A DNA stretch of 22,542 bases from IMG/VR virus record IMGVR_UViG_3300021959_009510, positions 1 through 22,542 of that record; one strand, given 5' to 3'. Of this stretch, positions 1,970 through 16,600 are shown piece after piece. Source of the DNA: a virus. The translations under genes were made by a program, and so were the position numbers. How positions within the stretch are numbered: position 1 is the first letter of the stretch; every line of letters starts with the position of its first letter. The notes under the pieces were generated by a model. That model was not told the DNA's origin, did not search any database, and saw only the letters and a list, made by a program, of their open reading frames with translations.

Positions 1970-2154
1970 ACACTGTAGGCGTTGAAGTGTGTGTAATACA
2001 CTTTTGGGACGTCGGGGCAGTACCGACCACCTCCACCAAAATCGCTCATTTGAAATAGTCTGGTTTATTTCGAGGGGGTGATATAGGTTCGACCGGAGTT
2101 TAAAGACACATGGAGTTTACCAGTCAGGCCTCTGTAAAGGGCTAACTTATAAAT

Positions 2155-2226
2155 GCAAACGCATTTAAACCAGAAGTGACAGTTCCTGTCAGCGTATTCG
2201 CTGATGCGGAATTGGTTGCCGCTTAA
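2155..2226 (+). other. tmRNA tag-peptide reading frame
   Basis: The frame follows TATAAAT, starts with GCA AAC GCA and ends GAA TTG GTT GCC GCT TAA. It encodes 23 residues, beginning ANAFKPEV and ending ADAELVAA. The alanine-asparagine opening and the hydrophobic VAA end match tmRNA degradation tags, whose final residues are read by ClpXP/ClpAP. It is longer than the roughly 8-16 residues I know for most tags. Two perfect hairpins, TGACAG/CTGTCA (2177-2191) and CAGCG/CGCTG (2190-2203), lie inside the extra length and share two bases. Confidence 0.85.
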
Positions 2227-2273
2227 TACCGGCCACTTGGCGGTAGATCTACCGGGCAACAGAACAGATCAGG

Positions 2274-2295
2274 TGTGGGAGTTTCGACTCCCACA
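2274..2295 (+). terminator. Hairpin at the end of the tmRNA gene
   Basis: TGTGGGAG (2274-2281) pairs perfectly with CTCCCACA (2288-2295) around TTTCGA, followed by TTTAAAG. The 8-bp GC-rich stem fits a terminator or a 3'-end stabilising hairpin, but the T-run is short. Confidence 0.55.
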
Positions 2296-9106: not shown

Positions 9107-9550
9107 ATGACAAATAAAACACTATCTATATTCAATCAATTAAGACCCGTAACAGTAGGATTTGACAATGTGTTCGATCATTTCGAAAGAATGATTGATG
9201 ATCACAATTTCAACACCATGACTGCTACAAACTTCCCACCGTACAACATTGTGAAGACTGGTGACTACACATATGACGTGGAACTTGCACTTGCAGGTTT
9301 TTCAAAAGACGACATTGATGTAGAATACAAGGACAATATGTTGACTGTCAAATCTAAGGAAAAAGCCAAAGATTCTGACGTAGACGGTATGCTTCACAGA
9401 GGAATCAGTAAGAGATGGTTTTCAAAAGCCTTTACTATTGCTGACGATGTGGAAGTAAAAGGAGCAGAACTTAAAGATGGTTTGCTAAAAATATCCATGG
9501 AAAGAATAATTCCAGAAGGTAAGAAGGCAAGAACTATCGAAGTTAAGTAA
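9107..9550 (+). CDS. hsp20: Small heat-shock protein (Hsp20/IbpA-like)
   Basis: A 147-residue small heat-shock protein. The N-terminal arm (FDNVFDHFERMI) resembles IbpA; the alpha-crystallin domain runs from about residue 45 (FPPYNIVKTGDYTYDVELAL) through AGFSKDDIDVEYKDNMLTV, and ends with the conserved DGLLKISMER; a short C-terminal tail follows. It holds unfolded proteins in a refoldable state without ATP. The ATG at 9107 has AAGGAG eight bases upstream; an upstream GTG at 9047 in frame is rejected because the added residues look unlike the family. Hsp20 is widespread in T4-like marine phages and is thought to support virion assembly. clpS follows after a structured gap. Confidence 0.95.
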   Translation: MTNKTLSIFNQLRPVTVGFDNVFDHFERMIDDHNFNTMTATNFPPYNIVKTGDYTYDVELALAGFSKDDIDVEYKDNMLTVKSKEKAKDSDVDGMLHRGISKRWFSKAFTIADDVEVKGAELKDGLLKISMERIIPEGKKARTIEVK

Positions 9551-9560
9551 CTTTAATATA

Positions 9561-9582
9561 GGTAGGGTGGCAACACCCTACC
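9561..9582 (+). promoter_or_regulatory. GNRA-loop hairpin between hsp20 and clpS
   Basis: GGTAGGGTG (9561-9569) pairs perfectly with CACCCTACC (9574-9582), closing a GCAA tetraloop of the GNRA class. It starts 11 bases after the hsp20 stop and has no T-run, so it is more likely an mRNA processing or stability element than a terminator. Confidence 0.7.
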
Positions 9583-9602
9583 GCACTAACAACAGGAATA
9601 GA

Positions 9603-9911
9603 ATGACAGGCACTGGCATAGATGTACAAATAGATGAAAAAGTCAAACAGGTTGTAAAGGAACCCGACAATTTTAAAGTGATCATCATGAACGATGATAT
9701 AACACCAATGGATTTTGTGATAGACATAATTTGTAGTGTGTTCAAACACACCATAGAAACAGCAAAAGACTTAACACTTAAAATTCACAAAGAAGGTTCG
9801 TGTGTGATTGCAGTGTACACATACGAGATAGCAGAACAAAAAGGCACAGAAGTTACCAATGCCAGTAGAGCAAAAGGTTATCCACTACAAGTAATAATAG
9901 AAAAAGAATGA
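9603..9911 (+). CDS. clpS: ClpS-like protease adaptor
   Basis: A 102-residue ClpS, close to the 106 of E. coli. After a flexible arm, the core opens NFKVIIMNDDITPMDFVI. The N-degron pocket residues are present: N30, D31, D32, T34, P35, M36, and H62 in LKIHKEG, matching the spacing N34/D35/D36 to H66 in E. coli. It should bind proteins bearing destabilising N-terminal residues and hand them to the ClpA/ClpP protease of the host. I chose the ATG at 9603, preceded by AGGAAT; an upstream in-frame GTG lies inside a stable hairpin. The stop overlaps the heme oxygenase start (ATGA). Phage ClpS may redirect host degradation; that is inference. Confidence 0.93.
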   Translation: MTGTGIDVQIDEKVKQVVKEPDNFKVIIMNDDITPMDFVIDIICSVFKHTIETAKDLTLKIHKEGSCVIAVYTYEIAEQKGTEVTNASRAKGYPLQVIIEKE

Positions 9912-10453
9912 GTTCATTAAAAGAATTAACAATGGAAGAACACAAAAATGCTGAACGTCAGCAATTTGTGATGGAGATATTTCGCGGCACTGTGGACGAA
10001 AAACAATATGCGGAATTTTTATTCAATCAACATGCCATTTATGATACACTTGAAGCCACAGCAATGATGCATGGTATCTTCAACAACATTCCAACAATCA
10101 GAAGAGCTCCTAGCATAATGGAAGACTATATTGAATTATGGGGAGATAATCCTCCACCAGAACATAAACCTTCCACAAAGAAATATATGGAACACATTTT
10201 CCGTATACGTGACGATGTTGACAAAGTGATGGCCCATGTTTATGTGAGGCACATGGGAGATTTAAGTGGTGGACAGATACTGAAAAAGAAAGTGCCTGGT
10301 TCAGGTAAACTGTATCAGTTTGAAGGGGACGTAACAGATTTAAAAGACAAAATTAGAAGCAAAACCAAAGACAGCATGGCAGAAGAAGCCAAAGTGTGTT
10401 TTAACTTTGCCACACAACTGTTTAAAGAAATGCAAGATGGTCAAATTAAGTAA
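9908..10453 (+). CDS. ho1: Heme oxygenase
   Basis: A 181-residue heme oxygenase. The proximal heme ligand is H12 in MEEHKNAE, and the distal-helix signature is GDLSGGQ at 117-123, within HVYVRHMGDLSGGQILKK. These open heme to biliverdin, CO and Fe2+ using electrons from ferredoxin. It is shorter than the roughly 230 residues of cyanobacterial HO1, mainly at the C-terminus. It is translationally coupled to clpS and lies one small gene upstream of a bilin reductase, so biliverdin is probably the product that matters, although released iron could also benefit the cell. Heme oxygenases occur in cyanophages with phycobilin genes. Confidence 0.93.
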   Translation: MSSLKELTMEEHKNAERQQFVMEIFRGTVDEKQYAEFLFNQHAIYDTLEATAMMHGIFNNIPTIRRAPSIMEDYIELWGDNPPPEHKPSTKKYMEHIFRIRDDVDKVMAHVYVRHMGDLSGGQILKKKVPGSGKLYQFEGDVTDLKDKIRSKTKDSMAEEAKVCFNFATQLFKEMQDGQIK

Positions 10454-10661
10454 CACATCGCCTTTAAGAAAAGCACGTAAGGACTTTTCAGGCAATCTAA
10501 TTAGAACAAACATACTTCAACAAGAAATAAACTATTTGAAAAGCATAGTACAAGAAACAGATTGTGGCCATATCATAACTGCAATCAGTGTGCTTGAAGA
10601 CAGAGTCAAGGCATTAAAGGGAGAAGACATTGATGATCCTTTTATAGATGGTGATGTTTAA
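10437..10661 (+). CDS. Small hypothetical protein between heme oxygenase and bilin reductase
   Basis: A 74-residue protein from the ATG at 10437 (MVKLSNTSPLRKARKDFSG), with a central helix (QQEINYLKSIVQET) and an acidic end (DIDDPFIDGDV). An in-frame ATG at 10407 would add ten residues that read like out-of-frame heme oxygenase sequence, so I prefer 10437. It overlaps the heme oxygenase gene by 17 bases and the bilin reductase start by one (TAATG), which couples translation of all three. I do not recognise a family; its position suggests a possible partner or regulator of the bilin pathway, without direct support. Confidence 0.65.
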   Translation: MVKLSNTSPLRKARKDFSGNLIRTNILQQEINYLKSIVQETDCGHIITAISVLEDRVKALKGEDIDDPFIDGDV

Positions 10662-11359
10662 TGAGTTACATCTGGGACACTCTAATAGACTGCAAAGAAC
10701 AAATCATAAAAGAGTTTGACGCAAGAGGTACCGAAATTCAAGAAGAAGGCATGAGTCAATTCAATCAACCCGACAATGGTTGGATCAACAGAGTATGGAA
10801 AACAGAAGACTGTAGACGTTGTCACATAGATGTTGTGGATGCCAGAGAGTCAAAAGGATTATGGATGATGCACGTGTGTATCTTTCCTAATTTGGATAAC
10901 AATGGTCCTATATATGGCTTTGATGTGATTGCAGGCAAAAACAAGATGACTGGTGCATTTCATGATTTTTCAAAAAGTTCAGGTGGTGAAGAGCATCCAT
11001 TGATAGATTGGTTCAAAGAGGCTGTGGAAGAATTTATACCCAGCAAGAAACGTGAATTACCGCAATGGGCATTGAACATATTCAGTGGTTCTATGGTTGC
11101 CGCAGGTAATGTCAGCAGTGAAGAAGAATCCAAAGCCATTGTGGATTTAGCATTGGAAAATTTGAAAGTGTATTTTGATTCTATAGGTGAATACAACAAC
11201 ACAGCCAAATTCGAAGACACCATAGATGCTCAAAACTATTACTGCCATAATCAGCAACAAAATCCCCACACTCCAAGAGTGATGAAGTCATTGGGACTAA
11301 AAGAAGAGGATGTCGAATTGTTCTGTACAGATGCATTATTTCCAAAAATTCAAAAATAG
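10661..11359 (+). CDS. pcyX: Ferredoxin-dependent bilin reductase (PcyA/PcyX-like)
   Basis: A 232-residue FDBR, the usual family size. The core WMMHVCIFPN, PIYGFDVIAGKNKMTGAFHDFS is diagnostic. H71 and D88 are 17 residues apart, as are the catalytic H88 and D105 of PcyA. The position matching PcyA E76 is V59, flanked by D57 and D60, so that glutamate is not conserved. The C-terminal helix carries CHNQQQNPHTPRVMKSLG. FDBRs reduce biliverdin to phycobilins with electrons from ferredoxin. From memory, uncultured marine phages carry a PcyA-related enzyme, PcyX, reported to make phycoerythrobilin; this resembles that class, but PcyA, PebA or PebS activity cannot be excluded by eye. It is coupled to the heme oxygenase gene set. 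Confidence 0.88.
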   Translation: MSYIWDTLIDCKEQIIKEFDARGTEIQEEGMSQFNQPDNGWINRVWKTEDCRRCHIDVVDARESKGLWMMHVCIFPNLDNNGPIYGFDVIAGKNKMTGAFHDFSKSSGGEEHPLIDWFKEAVEEFIPSKKRELPQWALNIFSGSMVAAGNVSSEEESKAIVDLALENLKVYFDSIGEYNNTAKFEDTIDAQNYYCHNQQQNPHTPRVMKSLGLKEEDVELFCTDALFPKIQK

Positions 11360-11398: not shown

Positions 11399-11563
11399 AT
11401 GTTACAATATCATAATTTTAATGATATAAAAATTAAACTAACTGCCATGAAACAAAAAAGCATGGAAGTTGAAAAAGCAGTTGCAGATAAAAAATCACAA
11501 GAAGAAATAAATTTTTTAATTTCTGAATTAAAACAAATGGCTATGGAGTTGGCAAAAGGATAA
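11399..11563 (+). CDS. Small helical hypothetical protein
   Basis: A 54-residue protein starting MLQYHNFNDIKIKLTAMKQK. Most of it is predicted helix with heptad-like spacing (MEVEKAVADKKSQEEINFLI), probably a small coiled coil. The ATG at 11399 sits at the predicted transcription start, so the mRNA is probably leaderless. The stop and the next start share TAATG, coupling it to the metallopeptidase. It could be a partner or inhibitor of that peptidase, but nothing in the sequence proves this. Confidence 0.65.
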   Translation: MLQYHNFNDIKIKLTAMKQKSMEVEKAVADKKSQEEINFLISELKQMAMELAKG

Positions 11564-12027
11564 TGTTGGTCACAGTTTCAGGAGCAAACAAAAGTATCAC
11601 AGACTTGACGGAAAGTCTTGTTCATTACTGTGCCAAGAAATTAAAGATCAAAGACTCGGTTGTGATTGATGTAGAATTTACCAAGACATTGTACAAGGAA
11701 GATGGTATATTAGGCGAAGTTGATTTTGATGACACAAACCACAGACCAAAAGAATTTACAATAACTGTGGACAGCACAGGATCCAAAAGAACAATAATGG
11801 AGACCATAGCACACGAAATGGTCCACGTCAAACAGTACAGCAAAGGTGAGTTGGTTGATATGTCACGTTCGGGATCAAGCAGATGGCAAAATAAAGCAGT
11901 GGACAGCAACACCAACTACTGGGATCTGCCCTGGGAGATAGAAGCACATGGCAAGGAACTGGGACTGTTCATAAGATGGACTGAAGATTCAGAACTATCC
12001 AAATATTCCTGGACTCAACAGGATTAG
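11563..12027 (+). CDS. Zinc metallopeptidase (HExxH, SprT-like)
   Basis: A 154-residue zincin-like protein. The metal-binding motif HEMVH (HExxH) lies at residues 85-89 in TIMETIAHEMVHVKQY, and the third ligand is probably the glutamate or histidine in WEIEAHGKELG about 40 residues later. The N-terminal half is a beta sheet. SprT-like and related phage peptidases cut proteins, sometimes DNA-protein crosslinks; the phage target is not known. There is no signal peptide, so it acts in the cytoplasm. Translation is coupled to the small helical protein upstream. It precedes the ClpP-like gene but a separate late promoter lies between them. Confidence 0.85.
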   Translation: MLVTVSGANKSITDLTESLVHYCAKKLKIKDSVVIDVEFTKTLYKEDGILGEVDFDDTNHRPKEFTITVDSTGSKRTIMETIAHEMVHVKQYSKGELVDMSRSGSSRWQNKAVDSNTNYWDLPWEIEAHGKELGLFIRWTEDSELSKYSWTQQD

Positions 12028-12083: not shown

Positions 12084-12644
12084 ATGAAAAAGTACGAAAA
12101 TTACAGTGCAGAAGAGCGAGCAGAAGTCAGTCTTTATGACAATGACGTTCATTATTTGAACGGAGAAATCACAGAAGATAATGTCAGCAAAGCAATTAAA
12201 TGGATTCTGTCAGCCAATCTTCAGAAGAAACCCAAACGCAAATTGACATTGTACATCAACACCGTGGGTGGAGACTTGTATGAATCTTTCGCATTGATTG
12301 ATGTGATGAAAGATAGTCATCACTCAATAGCCACAATAGGTATTGGTGCTGTGATGAGTGCAGGCTTTTTGATATTTGCCAGCGGTCAACAAGGTGAGCG
12401 TTACATTGGGAAGAACACAGGCATATTAAACCATCAACACTCGGACACAATGGAATCCAAAATGCATGACATGAAAGCACAGATGAAAGAAAACAACAAC
12501 TGTGAACAAAGATGTATGCAGATATTAAGAGATGCTACCGGATACAGTTTGGTAGATGTTAGAAAAAAATTCAACAATCCTTCCGATCAATATTTTACAG
12601 CAAAACAATTGGTTGATTTAAAAATTGCAGATCATATCTTGTAA
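12084..12644 (+). CDS. clpP: ClpP-like serine protease
   Basis: A 186-residue ClpP-family protein. The catalytic triad is present: S92 in GAVMSAGFL (where ClpP has the nucleophile in M-S-A/M-G), H117 in GILNHQHS (equivalent to MIHQP), and D168 in NPSDQYFTA (equivalent to DRDxFxSA). The oligomerisation helix and YINTVGG oxyanion loop are also visible. ClpP forms tetradecamers that degrade unfolded substrates delivered by ClpX or ClpA. The N-terminus has no long propeptide. Phage ClpP-like enzymes are also used as prohead proteases in some phages, so a capsid-maturation role is an alternative. The late promoter would favour that, whereas clpS and tmRNA in the same window favour a degradation role. 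Confidence 0.9.
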   Translation: MKKYENYSAEERAEVSLYDNDVHYLNGEITEDNVSKAIKWILSANLQKKPKRKLTLYINTVGGDLYESFALIDVMKDSHHSIATIGIGAVMSAGFLIFASGQQGERYIGKNTGILNHQHSDTMESKMHDMKAQMKENNNCEQRCMQILRDATGYSLVDVRKKFNNPSDQYFTAKQLVDLKIADHIL

Positions 12645-13610: not shown

Positions 13611-14633
13611 ATGAAAAATATTGGAATACTTGGTGCTGGCAAAATTGGTGGCACAATTTACAACTATCTTAAAACAACTGAACACAATGTCACTGTTGCT
13701 GATAAATTTGGCAATGACGAAGTACAAAAATTAGATGTGTTTAACAAGACAGAACTAGATGCATTTGTATCTAAACAAGACATCATAGTGTCAGCGGCTC
13801 CATATGATGCTAATCCATTAATAGCCGATTCATGCAACGAAAACAATGTTGCATATTTTGATTTAACAGAAGACACAGCAGTTACAGATCATATTAAAAC
13901 ACTTAACTCTGATGTGTTCATGATGCCACAATGCGGGTTTGCTCCCGGAGCCATTAACATTGTAGCCAGTAATTTAATGAAACAATTTTCAAGAGTTGAT
14001 AAAGTCAACATGAGAGGCGGAGCATTGCCTAAGTACCCAAACAATCAAATGAGTTATTATCTAACTTGGAGTACATCAGGATTGATCAACGAATACATCA
14101 ATGAGTGTGATGTGATTAGAAATGGTAAACACATCAAGACTCAGCCACTAGATGGATTGGAAACACTGTACATAGATGGTGACAGATATGATGCATTTAA
14201 CACTTCAGGTGGTGCGGCAAGCATGTGTGAAACTTTTCAAGATAAAGTAAAAACATTGGATTATAAAACAATCAGATATCCAGGACACCACAGTTCAATT
14301 AAGTTTTTGTTAGACGATTTAAATTTAAAACACAACAAAGAAAAATTTATCGATCTGTTTGATCAAGAAGTACCTTACACAACCTCAGATGTCATAGTGA
14401 TGTTTTGCAGTGTGGTGGGTATTAAGAACGGTACCTTACAAGAAGTAACCTACAGTAGAAAGATATATGGTGATAAAGACTTCAGTGCTATACAAAGAAC
14501 AACTGCTTCAGGAATGTGTGCGATTGTGATTGCTTACGCTGAAGGAAAACTAACAGGCAAAGGATTCCAACGTCAAGAAGATGTTCCTTTGGAAACTTTT
14601 TTAAGCAATAAATTTGGTAAACTTTATGAATAG
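13611..14633 (+). CDS. Saccharopine dehydrogenase / lysine 6-dehydrogenase-like enzyme
   Basis: A 340-residue oxidoreductase. The N-terminal Rossmann fold carries GAGKIGG (residues 8-14) for NAD(P), and an acidic residue follows the second strand (VTVADK). The second half contains CGFAPGAINIVAS and MRGGALPKYPNNQMSYYLTW, typical of the saccharopine dehydrogenase/lysine dehydrogenase family. Saccharopine dehydrogenase splits saccharopine into glutamate and 2-aminoadipate semialdehyde (AASA); lysine 6-dehydrogenase makes AASA directly from lysine. Either product is the substrate of the enzyme encoded next, supporting this assignment. I chose the ATG at 13611 because the Rossmann strand starts there. 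The gene's last bases overlap the next start. Confidence 0.82.
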   Translation: MKNIGILGAGKIGGTIYNYLKTTEHNVTVADKFGNDEVQKLDVFNKTELDAFVSKQDIIVSAAPYDANPLIADSCNENNVAYFDLTEDTAVTDHIKTLNSDVFMMPQCGFAPGAINIVASNLMKQFSRVDKVNMRGGALPKYPNNQMSYYLTWSTSGLINEYINECDVIRNGKHIKTQPLDGLETLYIDGDRYDAFNTSGGAASMCETFQDKVKTLDYKTIRYPGHHSSIKFLLDDLNLKHNKEKFIDLFDQEVPYTTSDVIVMFCSVVGIKNGTLQEVTYSRKIYGDKDFSAIQRTTASGMCAIVIAYAEGKLTGKGFQRQEDVPLETFLSNKFGKLYE

Positions 14634-16005
14634 ATCAGACTACGACATCACTATCACAAAAGCAAAAGCAATTCAAACACAGTGGCGCACAGTGCCAGCA
14701 CCTAAAAGAGGTGAATTGATTAGAGTGTTTGGCAATATCTTAAGACAAGACATTGAAAAGATTGGCACAGCCATCATGACAGACGCAAAAAAAATACACG
14801 CAGAAGCAATCGGCGAAGTTCAAGAAGCAATTGACATGTGTGATTTCGCTGTGGGACTGTCTAGACAGTTGTATGGATTGACCATACAGAGCGAAAGACC
14901 AGAACACAAATTACAAGAAGTTTACAATCCATTAGGAGTTGTAGGTGTGATCACAGCATTCAATTTTCCTTGTGCCGTTTGGGCATGGAATCATTGTTTA
15001 GCCATTGTGTGTGGAAACAGTGTGCTTTGGAAAGGTTCGCCCAAAGCAACTGAGGTAACAAAATGTTGTAAGTCAGCATGGGACAAAGCAGTGGATGAAT
15101 GTATGCCTGGCACAGATTACAAAGATTTGTTGCAATTGATTGACGGAGACAAAGAACAGGCAGAATGGATGGCAGATGATGGCAGAATAAATTTATTAAG
15201 TGCCACAGGTTCAACTGAAATGGGCAAAGCACTGGCACCTAGGGTGTCAGCAAGAATGGGCCGAGCATTATATGAATTGGGTGGAAACAATGGAATGATT
15301 GTGTCCAAACACGCCAACATAGATTTAGCAGTGAGAGGTATTGTGTTTGGTGCTGTTGGTACAGCAGGACAAAGATGCACCACCCTGAGAAGATTGATTG
15401 TGCAAGAATCTGTGTATGATGAATTGATGATAAAATTAAAACCAGCATATGAAAGTTTATCTGTGGGAGACAATTTCAAACCAGAAACACTGGTTGGTCC
15501 TCTGATCAATTCAGCATCTGTGGATAAAATGCAGTCAGCATTGAGCACAGCCAAATCAAAGGGCTACACTGTACACGGTGGAGATGTGATCGATGAAGCA
15601 CAATGTTTGGTGCGTCCAGCAATAGTGGAGGTGACAGAACAATGTGATTTGGTTAAGACCGAAACATTTGCTCCAATTCTTTATGTGATGAAGTATCAAG
15701 AGTTAGATCAAGCAATTGAAATTCACAACTCAGTTCCGCAAGGTTTAAGTTCGTGTATATTCACTGACAATGTTCAAGAAGCAGAAACATTTACATCAGC
15801 CACAGGTTCGGATTGTGGTATTGTTAACATCAATATTGGACCAAGTGGAGCAGAAATTGGCGGAGCATTTGGTGGTGAGAAAGACACAGGTGGTGGCAGA
15901 GAATCTGGATCCGATGCTTGGAAACAGTACATGAGAAGAAGCACAGTCACAATCAACTACGGTAAATCATTACCATTGGCACAAGGGATCACGTTCGGAG
16001 ATTAA
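14629..16005 (+). CDS. Aldehyde dehydrogenase of the antiquitin (ALDH7) type, AASA dehydrogenase
   Basis: A 458-residue aldehyde dehydrogenase. Motifs: AFNFP at 111-115 with N113, catalytic E217 in YELGGNN, and C251 in GTAGQRCTTLRRL. The C-terminal segment with GGGRESGSDAWKQYMRRST, then INYGKSLPLAQGI is the antiquitin signature of ALDH7A1 and bacterial AmaB-type enzymes. These oxidise AASA to 2-aminoadipate with NAD+. It is slightly shorter than the usual 500 or so residues, mostly at the N-terminus. The ATG at 14629 overlaps the previous gene's last codons, so the two are co-translated. Substrate assignment relies on motif and neighbour; both agree. Confidence 0.93.
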   Translation, partial: NRSDYDITITKAKAIQTQWRTVPAPKRGELIRVFGNILRQDIEKIGTAIMTDAKKIHAEAIGEVQEAIDMCDFAVGLSRQLYGLTIQSERPEHKLQEVYNPLGVVGVITAFNFPCAVWAWNHCLAIVCGNSVLWKGSPKATEVTKCCKSAWDKAVDECMPGTDYKDLLQLIDGDKEQAEWMADDGRINLLSATGSTEMGKALAPRVSARMGRALYELGGNNGMIVSKHANIDLAVRGIVFGAVGTAGQRCTTLRRLIVQESVYDELMIKLKPAYESLSVGDNFKPETLVGPLINSASVDKMQSALSTAKSKGYTVHGGDVIDEAQCLVRPAIVEVTEQCDLVKTETFAPILYVMKYQELDQAIEIHNSVPQGLSSCIFTDNVQEAETFTSATGSDCGIVNINIGPSGAEIGGAFGGEKDTGGGRESGSDAWKQYMRRSTVTINYGKSLPLAQGITFGD

Positions 16006-16006
16006 T

Positions 16007-16600
16007 ATGCTAAAGGGTTTTTACAGAGATCCTACATTAAAGTTTGATGTTGCCAAAATGCAGTCAGCACTCAAAGAAGTGGATTCAAGAGTTTCAAGAC
16101 AGTCGCCAATTGGGGAAAGAGATATCAATGCTATCTGTCTTACACAAATACCAAATGATCCAAATTCAATCACAGGTGGTAATGTGAGAGGACTGTATTG
16201 GACCAAACCAGACAGCACTTATCAAGAAGTTCAAAGAGAAAAACCTATTGACGAAGGCAAGTATTCTGAATTTGTCAAACTGTTTGAAGACACATATTTC
16301 AAAGAGATCTATGATGCCATTACCAAAAAGTATCGACTTGGTAGGATTAGGTTGCTTTGGAAACTGCCTCGTACCACTTTAAGTTGGCATAGAGATCCAG
16401 AGCCTAGACTGCATATACCAATTGTAACAAATTTTGGTGCCAGAATGTGTATCGATACAGATATTGTTCATATGCCTGCAGATGGCGGAGTATGGATCAC
16501 CGATAATACCCGATATCATAATGCTTTCAACGGCGGTGAAGAAGACAGAGTTCACTTGGTTGCCACAGTTTTAGACTGTGACATGAGCATATTTGAATAA
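16007..16600 (+). CDS. 2OG-Fe(II) oxygenase, aspartyl/asparaginyl hydroxylase-like
   Basis: A 197-residue cupin-type oxygenase. Candidate iron ligands are H128 and D130 (WHRD) and H171 in NTRYHNAFN, with R181 (EDRVHLVATV) for 2OG. The order WHRDPEPRLHIPIV, then GVWITDNTRYHNA is typical of aspartyl/asparaginyl beta-hydroxylase-like proteins. The substrate is unknown. The gene starts one base after the aldehyde dehydrogenase stop, so it may use an intermediate of the same pathway, or simply share the transcript. It is unrelated in close detail to the oxygenase at 8335-8955. Confidence 0.85.
   Translation: MLKGFYRDPTLKFDVAKMQSALKEVDSRVSRQSPIGERDINAICLTQIPNDPNSITGGNVRGLYWTKPDSTYQEVQREKPIDEGKYSEFVKLFEDTYFKEIYDAITKKYRLGRIRLLWKLPRTTLSWHRDPEPRLHIPIVTNFGARMCIDTDIVHMPADGGVWITDNTRYHNAFNGGEEDRVHLVATVLDCDMSIFE

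Follow-up and report, generated by a model that had tools for sequence, protein, structure and literature searches.

A permuted phage tmRNA gene with a conserved tag, found in a viral lineage that also encodes Clp protease components

We identified a circularly permuted tmRNA gene at positions 1975-2295 (forward strand) of a marine phage contig, IMG/VR virus record IMGVR_UViG_3300021959_009510; the window, as we call the whole stretch of DNA analysed, comprises the 22,542 bases of this record, which is itself a fragment. The reading best supported by the sequence, and the one put forward in the preliminary description of this DNA, is that the phage would supply its own ribosome-rescue RNA with its own tag. 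We put at about 0.8 the probability that the gene encodes a working phage tmRNA, which would rely on the SmpB and alanyl-tRNA synthetase (AlaRS) of the host and would add a tag specified by the phage, in viruses that also supply parts of a Clp protease. Permuted tmRNAs borne by phages have already been published (in the phages Melnitz and Mosig, and in a survey; see below), and the window gene is a further member of this group. The conserved phage-specific tag appears to be new, and so does the presence, in phages with this tag, of genes for ClpS and ClpP and also, in a relative, for ClpA; in the literature that we searched, which covered a minority of the subscription journals, no phage tmRNA, ClpA, ClpP and ClpS were described as one system.

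Two reasons why phages carry tmRNA have been suggested: it may help to keep the translation machinery that they hijack in working order, or it may serve to degrade host proteins selectively (PMC9004378). In the present lineage, the tag is conserved as a protein, is unlike tags of the host type, and is accompanied by ClpS, ClpP, and ClpA. This renders the selective-degradation idea directly testable, and raises the question of whether the tag routes proteins to a protease built by the phage; the phage tag and its tmRNA would, moreover, provide a naturally occurring alternative pair of degron and tmRNA.

The permuted tmRNA gene and its structure

The gene was detected by two Rfam covariance models, alpha_tmRNA (RF01849; 99.3 bits, E = 2.4e-26, over 1937-2273) and tmRNA_permuted (RF04321; 95.2 bits, E = 1.3e-17, over 1975-2226), with scores that exceed the gathering scores of 50 and 47, respectively; ARAGORN reported a permuted tmRNA at 1943-2317, with a tag identical to that read from the sequence. 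The covariance-model search and the ARAGORN run, which the preliminary description had proposed for the interval, were both positive. The coordinates given there (1976-2295) agree well with the structure, in which the first long-range helix begins at 1975 and the terminal hairpin ends at 2295. All elements stand in the permuted order described there: the 3′ tRNA half (T-arm, CACCTCC, and ACCA; 2011-2038) lies upstream of the 5′ half (beginning with GGGGGTG; 2074-2093), and a resume frame ending in ELVAA follows downstream.

The gene has a probable sigma-70-like promoter of its own at 1941-1969 (TTGACT and TTAAAT, 17 nt apart), which was read from the sequence and is conserved in the clade alignment; a simple promoter scan of the window did not list 1941-1969, and the sister lineage represented by contig L128 has a better promoter (TTGACA and TATAAA, also 17 nt apart). 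The acceptor piece opens with a 5′ part (1975-2007) whose segments pair with 2093-2120 as long-range P2-like helices (helices 1-3 in the RNAalifold structure of 32 relatives); compensatory changes occur in the second and third of these. It continues with the T-arm (2011-2027), which has a GGCAGUA loop and a covarying GUCGG/CCGAC stem (GAGGG/CCCUC and GCGGG/CCCGC being the other variants in the alignment), and ends with the 3′ acceptor strand CACCUCC (2028-2034) and the encoded discriminator and CCA (ACCA, 2035-2038), which are invariant in 32 of 32 relatives. The 35-nt intervening spacer (2039-2073), the removal of which is expected, contains a covarying hairpin (helix 6) with changes on both sides in 5 of its 7 pairs.

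The coding piece starts with the 5′ acceptor strand GGGGGUG (2074-2080), which in the Rfam alignment forms with CACCUCC the 7-bp acceptor stem that had been noticed earlier between the two halves, and which is likewise invariant in all 32 relatives. The stem, with its CACCUCC-ACCA end, contains a G3-U70 pair, the alanine identity pair for AlaRS; this pair, A73, and the CCA end do not vary among the 32 sequences. The D-loop-like region AUAUAGGUUCGAC (2081-2093; Rfam alignment) is followed by the tag reading frame (2155-2226), which consists of the resume codon GCA and the further codons of ANAFKPEVTVPVSVFADAELVAA, 23 in all throughout the clade, and the stop codon TAA. In the Rfam alpha_tmRNA alignment, a further element, ACCGGGCAACAGAA (2251-2264), lies close to the coding piece's 3′ end, as does ACCUGGCAACAGAA in the alphaproteobacterial model. 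A terminal hairpin, GUGUGGGAGU-UUCG-ACUCCCACAU (2272-2295; helix 14), with a 10-bp stem and changes on both sides in five pairs, is probably a terminator or the 3′ boundary of the RNA.

The structure was derived from 32 distinct relatives, all of them marine viral contigs, and comprises 79 pairs, 21 of which show compensatory changes. Standard pairs make up 99.0% of the pair cells, a percentage that is inflated since the structure comes from the same alignment, versus 92.3% after shuffling; when the partners are slid by 1-3 columns, paired cells drop to 34-42%. Double changes are the stronger evidence: there are 184 such cells against 63 expected, a count that none of 500 shuffles reached, and they sit in the T-stem, the P2 helices, the spacer hairpin, a 3′ helix, and the terminal hairpin. 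This covariation, together with the tests of tag conservation (see below), rules out a chance resemblance or a degenerate pseudogene.

Across the spacer, the type of T-loop tracks the type of D-region in all 32 aligned sequences: GGCAGUA occurs with AxxxAGG, UUCGACU with UACUUGGU, and UUCAACU with UACUGGGU. T-arm types and tag types, in turn, occur in all four combinations (in L131, L122, L071, and L123). These patterns are as expected if the tRNA-like domains are mosaic, recombination reassorting the segments and selection keeping the contact between D-loop and T-loop. Over window positions 2011-2093, comparison with L225, L229, and L122 shows the T-arm and D-loop types switching jointly, with nearly unchanged flanks.

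The tag and the Clp genes of the phage lineage

About 55 viral contigs share the conserved tag, ANAFKPEVTVPVSVFADAELVAA, which is 23 residues long in every member of the clade. The motif ANAFKPEVTVP (with N or K at position 2) occurs in 50 viral contigs; a search of 84,980 bacterial and archaeal genomes (one genome per species, short contigs lying outside the set) gave no match to it, and a shorter motif had none in the 385 genomes of an alphaproteobacterial sample. On the strength of these absences, we rejected a tag borrowed from the host. One match to the shorter pattern, in L301, arose by chance, inside another protein. Sampled bacterial tags have 9-25 residues (median 12, mostly 9-15), and 31 of the 35 distinct tags in the alphaproteobacterial sample start with ANDN, a start never seen in the phage clade.

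Among the members of the window's clade, the DNA of the tag varies very little, in part because it folds, so that the L128 sisters provide the informative comparison. Their tag, ALAFKPEVTVPVSIFADRELVAV, ends in VAV (ELVAV), the final alanine being replaced, whereas all members of the window's clade keep the LVAA end. The two tag sequences differ at 16 nucleotides, of which 9 are third codon positions, and in 4 amino acids versus 10.3 expected, a result obtained in none of 5,000 random trials; by this comparison of sequences, the tag is under purifying selection as a protein, and the changes between the lineages are mostly synonymous. ARAGORN missed the tmRNA with the ELVAV ending (L128:2598-2854; also in L129, L130, and L191), and its suggestion that these sisters lack a tmRNA is wrong, as there is an Rfam match with a tag ending in VAV. 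The same program gives ADAELVAA as the tag in L122, L013, L038, L045, and others, where the 23-codon frame is intact; this is an artefact of the tool.

The site of the tmRNA gene is conserved, between the gene of a cold-shock protein (csp) with a small ORF (1743-1937) and the ORF g2377 (2377-2646), and the gene order is kept over about 20 kb in four contigs (G308, G312, G325, and G331). About 7.3 kb downstream of the tmRNA gene there is a block encoding Hsp20, ClpS, heme oxygenase, and bilin reductase, followed by ClpP. The window genes, all on the forward strand, encode the small heat-shock protein Hsp20 (9107-9550; PF00011, E = 8.9e-18), the protease adaptor ClpS (9567-9911; PF02617, E = 8e-28), and a ClpP-like protease subunit (12084-12644; PF00574, E = 1.3e-26); functional residues are retained in both Clp proteins (the catalytic Ser/His/Asp triad in ClpP, and NDD..TPM..H in ClpS). 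The hsp20 gene adjoins clpS in nearly all relatives that bear ClpS. Judging the reach of each contig from the position and strand of its tmRNA, we found ClpS encoded in 25 of 25 clade contigs that extend far enough downstream, and ClpP in 13 of the 20 that are long enough; ClpP is not obligatory in the clade, since the other seven lack it. SmpB was found in none of the 51 contigs of the phage lineage that we searched.

Several neighbours of these genes deserve mention. At 11563-12027 there is a small, conserved protein, probably a metallopeptidase, that bears an HExxH motif (AHEMVHVKQ) and always adjoins ClpP where close relatives have ClpP. The heme oxygenase and the ferredoxin-dependent bilin reductase (9908-11359) resemble the PcyX cassette of marine phages, and G325 has an ORF resembling 5-aminolevulinate synthase (L270:13464-14654). 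Further downstream, at 13611-16600, a saccharopine-dehydrogenase-like gene, an aldehyde dehydrogenase (near L-piperidine-6-carboxylate dehydrogenase, with 692.7 bits, under the cut-off of 730), and an Asp/Asn hydroxylase form a possible lysine-breakdown set of the phage. In another contig, a ROSE_3 RNA thermometer (L151:9435-9501; 44.4 bits, cut-off 43) stands immediately 5′ of the phage hsp20, and the window has no match to this model.

The longest clade contig, G325 (148 kb), is the only one long enough to show ClpA, and is the only member of the tag clade in which we found it, about 60 kb from the tmRNA gene; the window ends before any such gene. The G325 protein has 749 residues, with the Pfam domains AAA, AAA_2, ClpB_D2-small, and Clp_N; its best NCBIfam model is that of ClpA (TIGR02639; 878 bits, below the cut-off of 993). 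Both Walker A motifs are present, and MGF takes the place of the ClpP-docking IGL/IGF motif, a position at which its relatives have IGF or VGF. The clpA gene of G325 is adjacent to a DnaJ gene (L318:1061-4656). Among 41 records searched, phage ClpA was found in 10, including 6 of the 7 viral contigs of at least 140 kb, and was absent from HTVC008M, Mosig, and Melnitz.

In the wider phage family, permuted tmRNAs score over the cut-off in 23 of 30 ClpS-bearing contigs of at least 40 kb, many of them at sites other than that of the window, and we therefore rejected a tie between ClpS and tmRNA through adjacency. Their tags vary, being either short (ATEEAFALAA, ANDNYAPETALAA) or long (ANASTFEYFTVEGFTADNGLVAA, ANADTFDFTAMSFTGNTVSGKSKVALAA); overall they are not significantly longer than bacterial tags (P = 0.07), and tags of at least 20 residues are commoner among them (6 of 15 versus 2 of 35, in samples that are non-independent). 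One contig of the same family carries a tmRNA of the betaproteobacterial type (L151:15186-15559; RF01850, 133.1 bits) with the long tag ANVSTFKFWQSPVSIAANDEAFALAA. This tmRNA and the variety of tags suggest that tmRNA was probably gained or replaced more than once in the wider family.

Proposed function and its alternatives

We infer from these sequences the following course of transcription, processing, charging, tagging, and degradation. The gene would be transcribed from its own sigma-70-like promoter, and cleavage at the spacer would split the precursor into an acceptor piece with CCA at its end and a coding piece starting with GGGGGUG, which would remain joined through the pairing in the acceptor stem and in the P2-like helices. 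Alanine would be charged by the host AlaRS via G3-U70, and the RNA would be delivered to stalled ribosomes by the SmpB of the host, which we assume because SmpB was not found in the phage lineage. A need for ribosome rescue is expected in infected cells with mRNA under degradation; there, the stalled ribosome would be released and the 23-residue phage-specific tag ending in LVAA added. Since these phages carry genes for ClpS, in many cases for ClpP, and in G325 for ClpA, the simplest fate of the tagged proteins would be a Clp protease to which the phage contributes at least some of the parts. The tag probably sends its products to a Clp protease, although the VAV end of the L128 tag, which is not a usual ClpX or ClpA signal, counts against degradation by Clp. 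The ClpS of E. coli inhibits the degradation of ssrA-tagged proteins by ClpAP, so the phage ClpS need not serve the tag. The sequence is compatible both with phage ClpA-ClpP as the reader of the tag and with a ClpS that, like that of E. coli, would keep ClpA off tagged proteins.

Somewhat short of even odds go to the reading that the phage tmRNA is for rescue only: it would free ribosomes, the host ClpXP would take the tag as it takes any ssrA tag, and the phage Clp genes would serve other ends, for example capsid maturation or the breakdown of host proteins by N-degron proteolysis. Such a role agrees with the LVAA end, which resembles the AA ending of ordinary ssrA tags, with the 7 of 20 testable clade contigs that lack ClpP, with the distance between tmRNA and clpS in the wider family, and with the ordinary short tags of most phage tmRNAs listed. 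It leaves unexplained, however, why the interior of a 23-residue tag should be conserved at the protein level, and why the tag lacks the ANDN start of most alphaproteobacterial tags.

We are doubtful of a private pathway of trans-translation and proteolysis in large marine phages, in which the phage tag would be read by the phage's ClpA-ClpP, with ClpS as a switch, apart from the ANDN tags of the host, and host protein would be recycled in the course of infection.

It seems distinctly improbable that the phage RNA is a decoy, which would compete for SmpB and AlaRS and swap host tags for a less degradable one, sparing phage proteins. In model bacteria, the ANDN start of the tag is the binding place of SspB-type adaptors, and the phage tag does without it; the L128 lineage, moreover, has the VAV end, which is likely a weak degron. 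A precedent exists in phage DS6A, whose CDS-less tmRNA inhibits the tmRNA of E. coli (PMC11915505). Against a decoy, however, stand the LVAA end, kept in all members of the window's clade, and the fact that the phages carry Clp parts and no evident Clp inhibitor.

That the gene is a host ssrA copy acquired without a selected role can hardly be upheld: ssrA fragments do occur in some prophages integrating at ssrA (PMC9004378), but against it speak the covariation, the invariant acceptor stem, the selection on the tag, and, in about 55 contigs, a conserved position with a promoter and a terminal hairpin belonging to the gene.

Relation to known tmRNAs

A published survey found tmRNA in 402 of 18,146 phage genomes, with 53 of 133 unique structures being two-piece, mostly marine (PMC9004378); elsewhere, 79 unique phage tmRNAs were counted (PMC11915505). 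Similar to the window, the marine Methylophilales phage Melnitz (MZ577097; PMC9004378) has a complete permuted tmRNA of the alpha type, for which a role in early infection has been proposed (PMC9004378). Melnitz differs in its short tag (ANDNYVPVDYALAA), its T4-type capsid, and a glutamine riboswitch in the tmRNA gene (PMC9004378); in addition, ClpA was not found in it, and it is not among the ClpS matches. We rejected a riboswitch of this kind for the window gene, as no Rfam riboswitch matched the window above its gathering score. The RNA type of the window gene suggests an alphaproteobacterial host. The preliminary description had likewise taken the permuted gene to point to a host lineage with two-piece tmRNA; the alphaproteobacterial type of the RNA stands, but the step to the host is weak, because Melnitz carries an alpha-type tmRNA yet infects a gammaproteobacterium.

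The Pelagibacter phages HTVC008M and Mosig also have permuted tmRNAs (90.6 and 93.6 bits, respectively), and Mosig shares with the window the heme oxygenase and the bilin reductase, the latter 56% identical to that of the window. However, their tags are different (ANFNEYALAA in HTVC008M and GEDNFALAA in Mosig), they have a Gp23 capsid and another gene order, and neither gives a ClpS match. Gp23 was found in Mosig, HTVC008M, and Melnitz, and in none of six clade contigs, all of them fragments, including the 148-kb G325; given this, and the lack of a ClpS match in Mosig, a close kinship to the T4-like pelagimyophages seems unlikely. A BLAST search of the tmRNA DNA against cultured phages gave short matches only. 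The permuted tmRNA of HTVC008M is at L266:2940-3281 (KC465899.1, 145120-145461), where the GenBank record has no tmRNA feature.

The two-piece tmRNA of alphaproteobacteria (RF01849, the Caulobacter type) shares with the window gene the permuted order, the T-loop GGCRGUA, the acceptor stem, and the CAACAGAA element; it differs in the tag, which in the bacteria mostly starts with ANDN, and in the phage clade has 23 residues and a motif not found in bacteria. Among jumbo phages, ClpA is annotated or matched in Phosso (Sinorhizobium), Atu_ph07 (Agrobacterium), and the Pseudomonas PA5oct group, and ClpS in Phosso and the PA5oct group, as in the family of the window phage, although the jumbo-phage proteins are only 28-45% identical to those of this family. 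The nearest published case, Sinorhizobium phage AP-J-162, is reported to carry a single tmRNA along with six Clp ORFs, Hsp20, and DnaJ; the paper that describes it draws no link between tmRNA and Clp (PMC11242549). In Phosso, the genes for DnaJ, peptide deformylase, and the Clp ATPase stand in a row.
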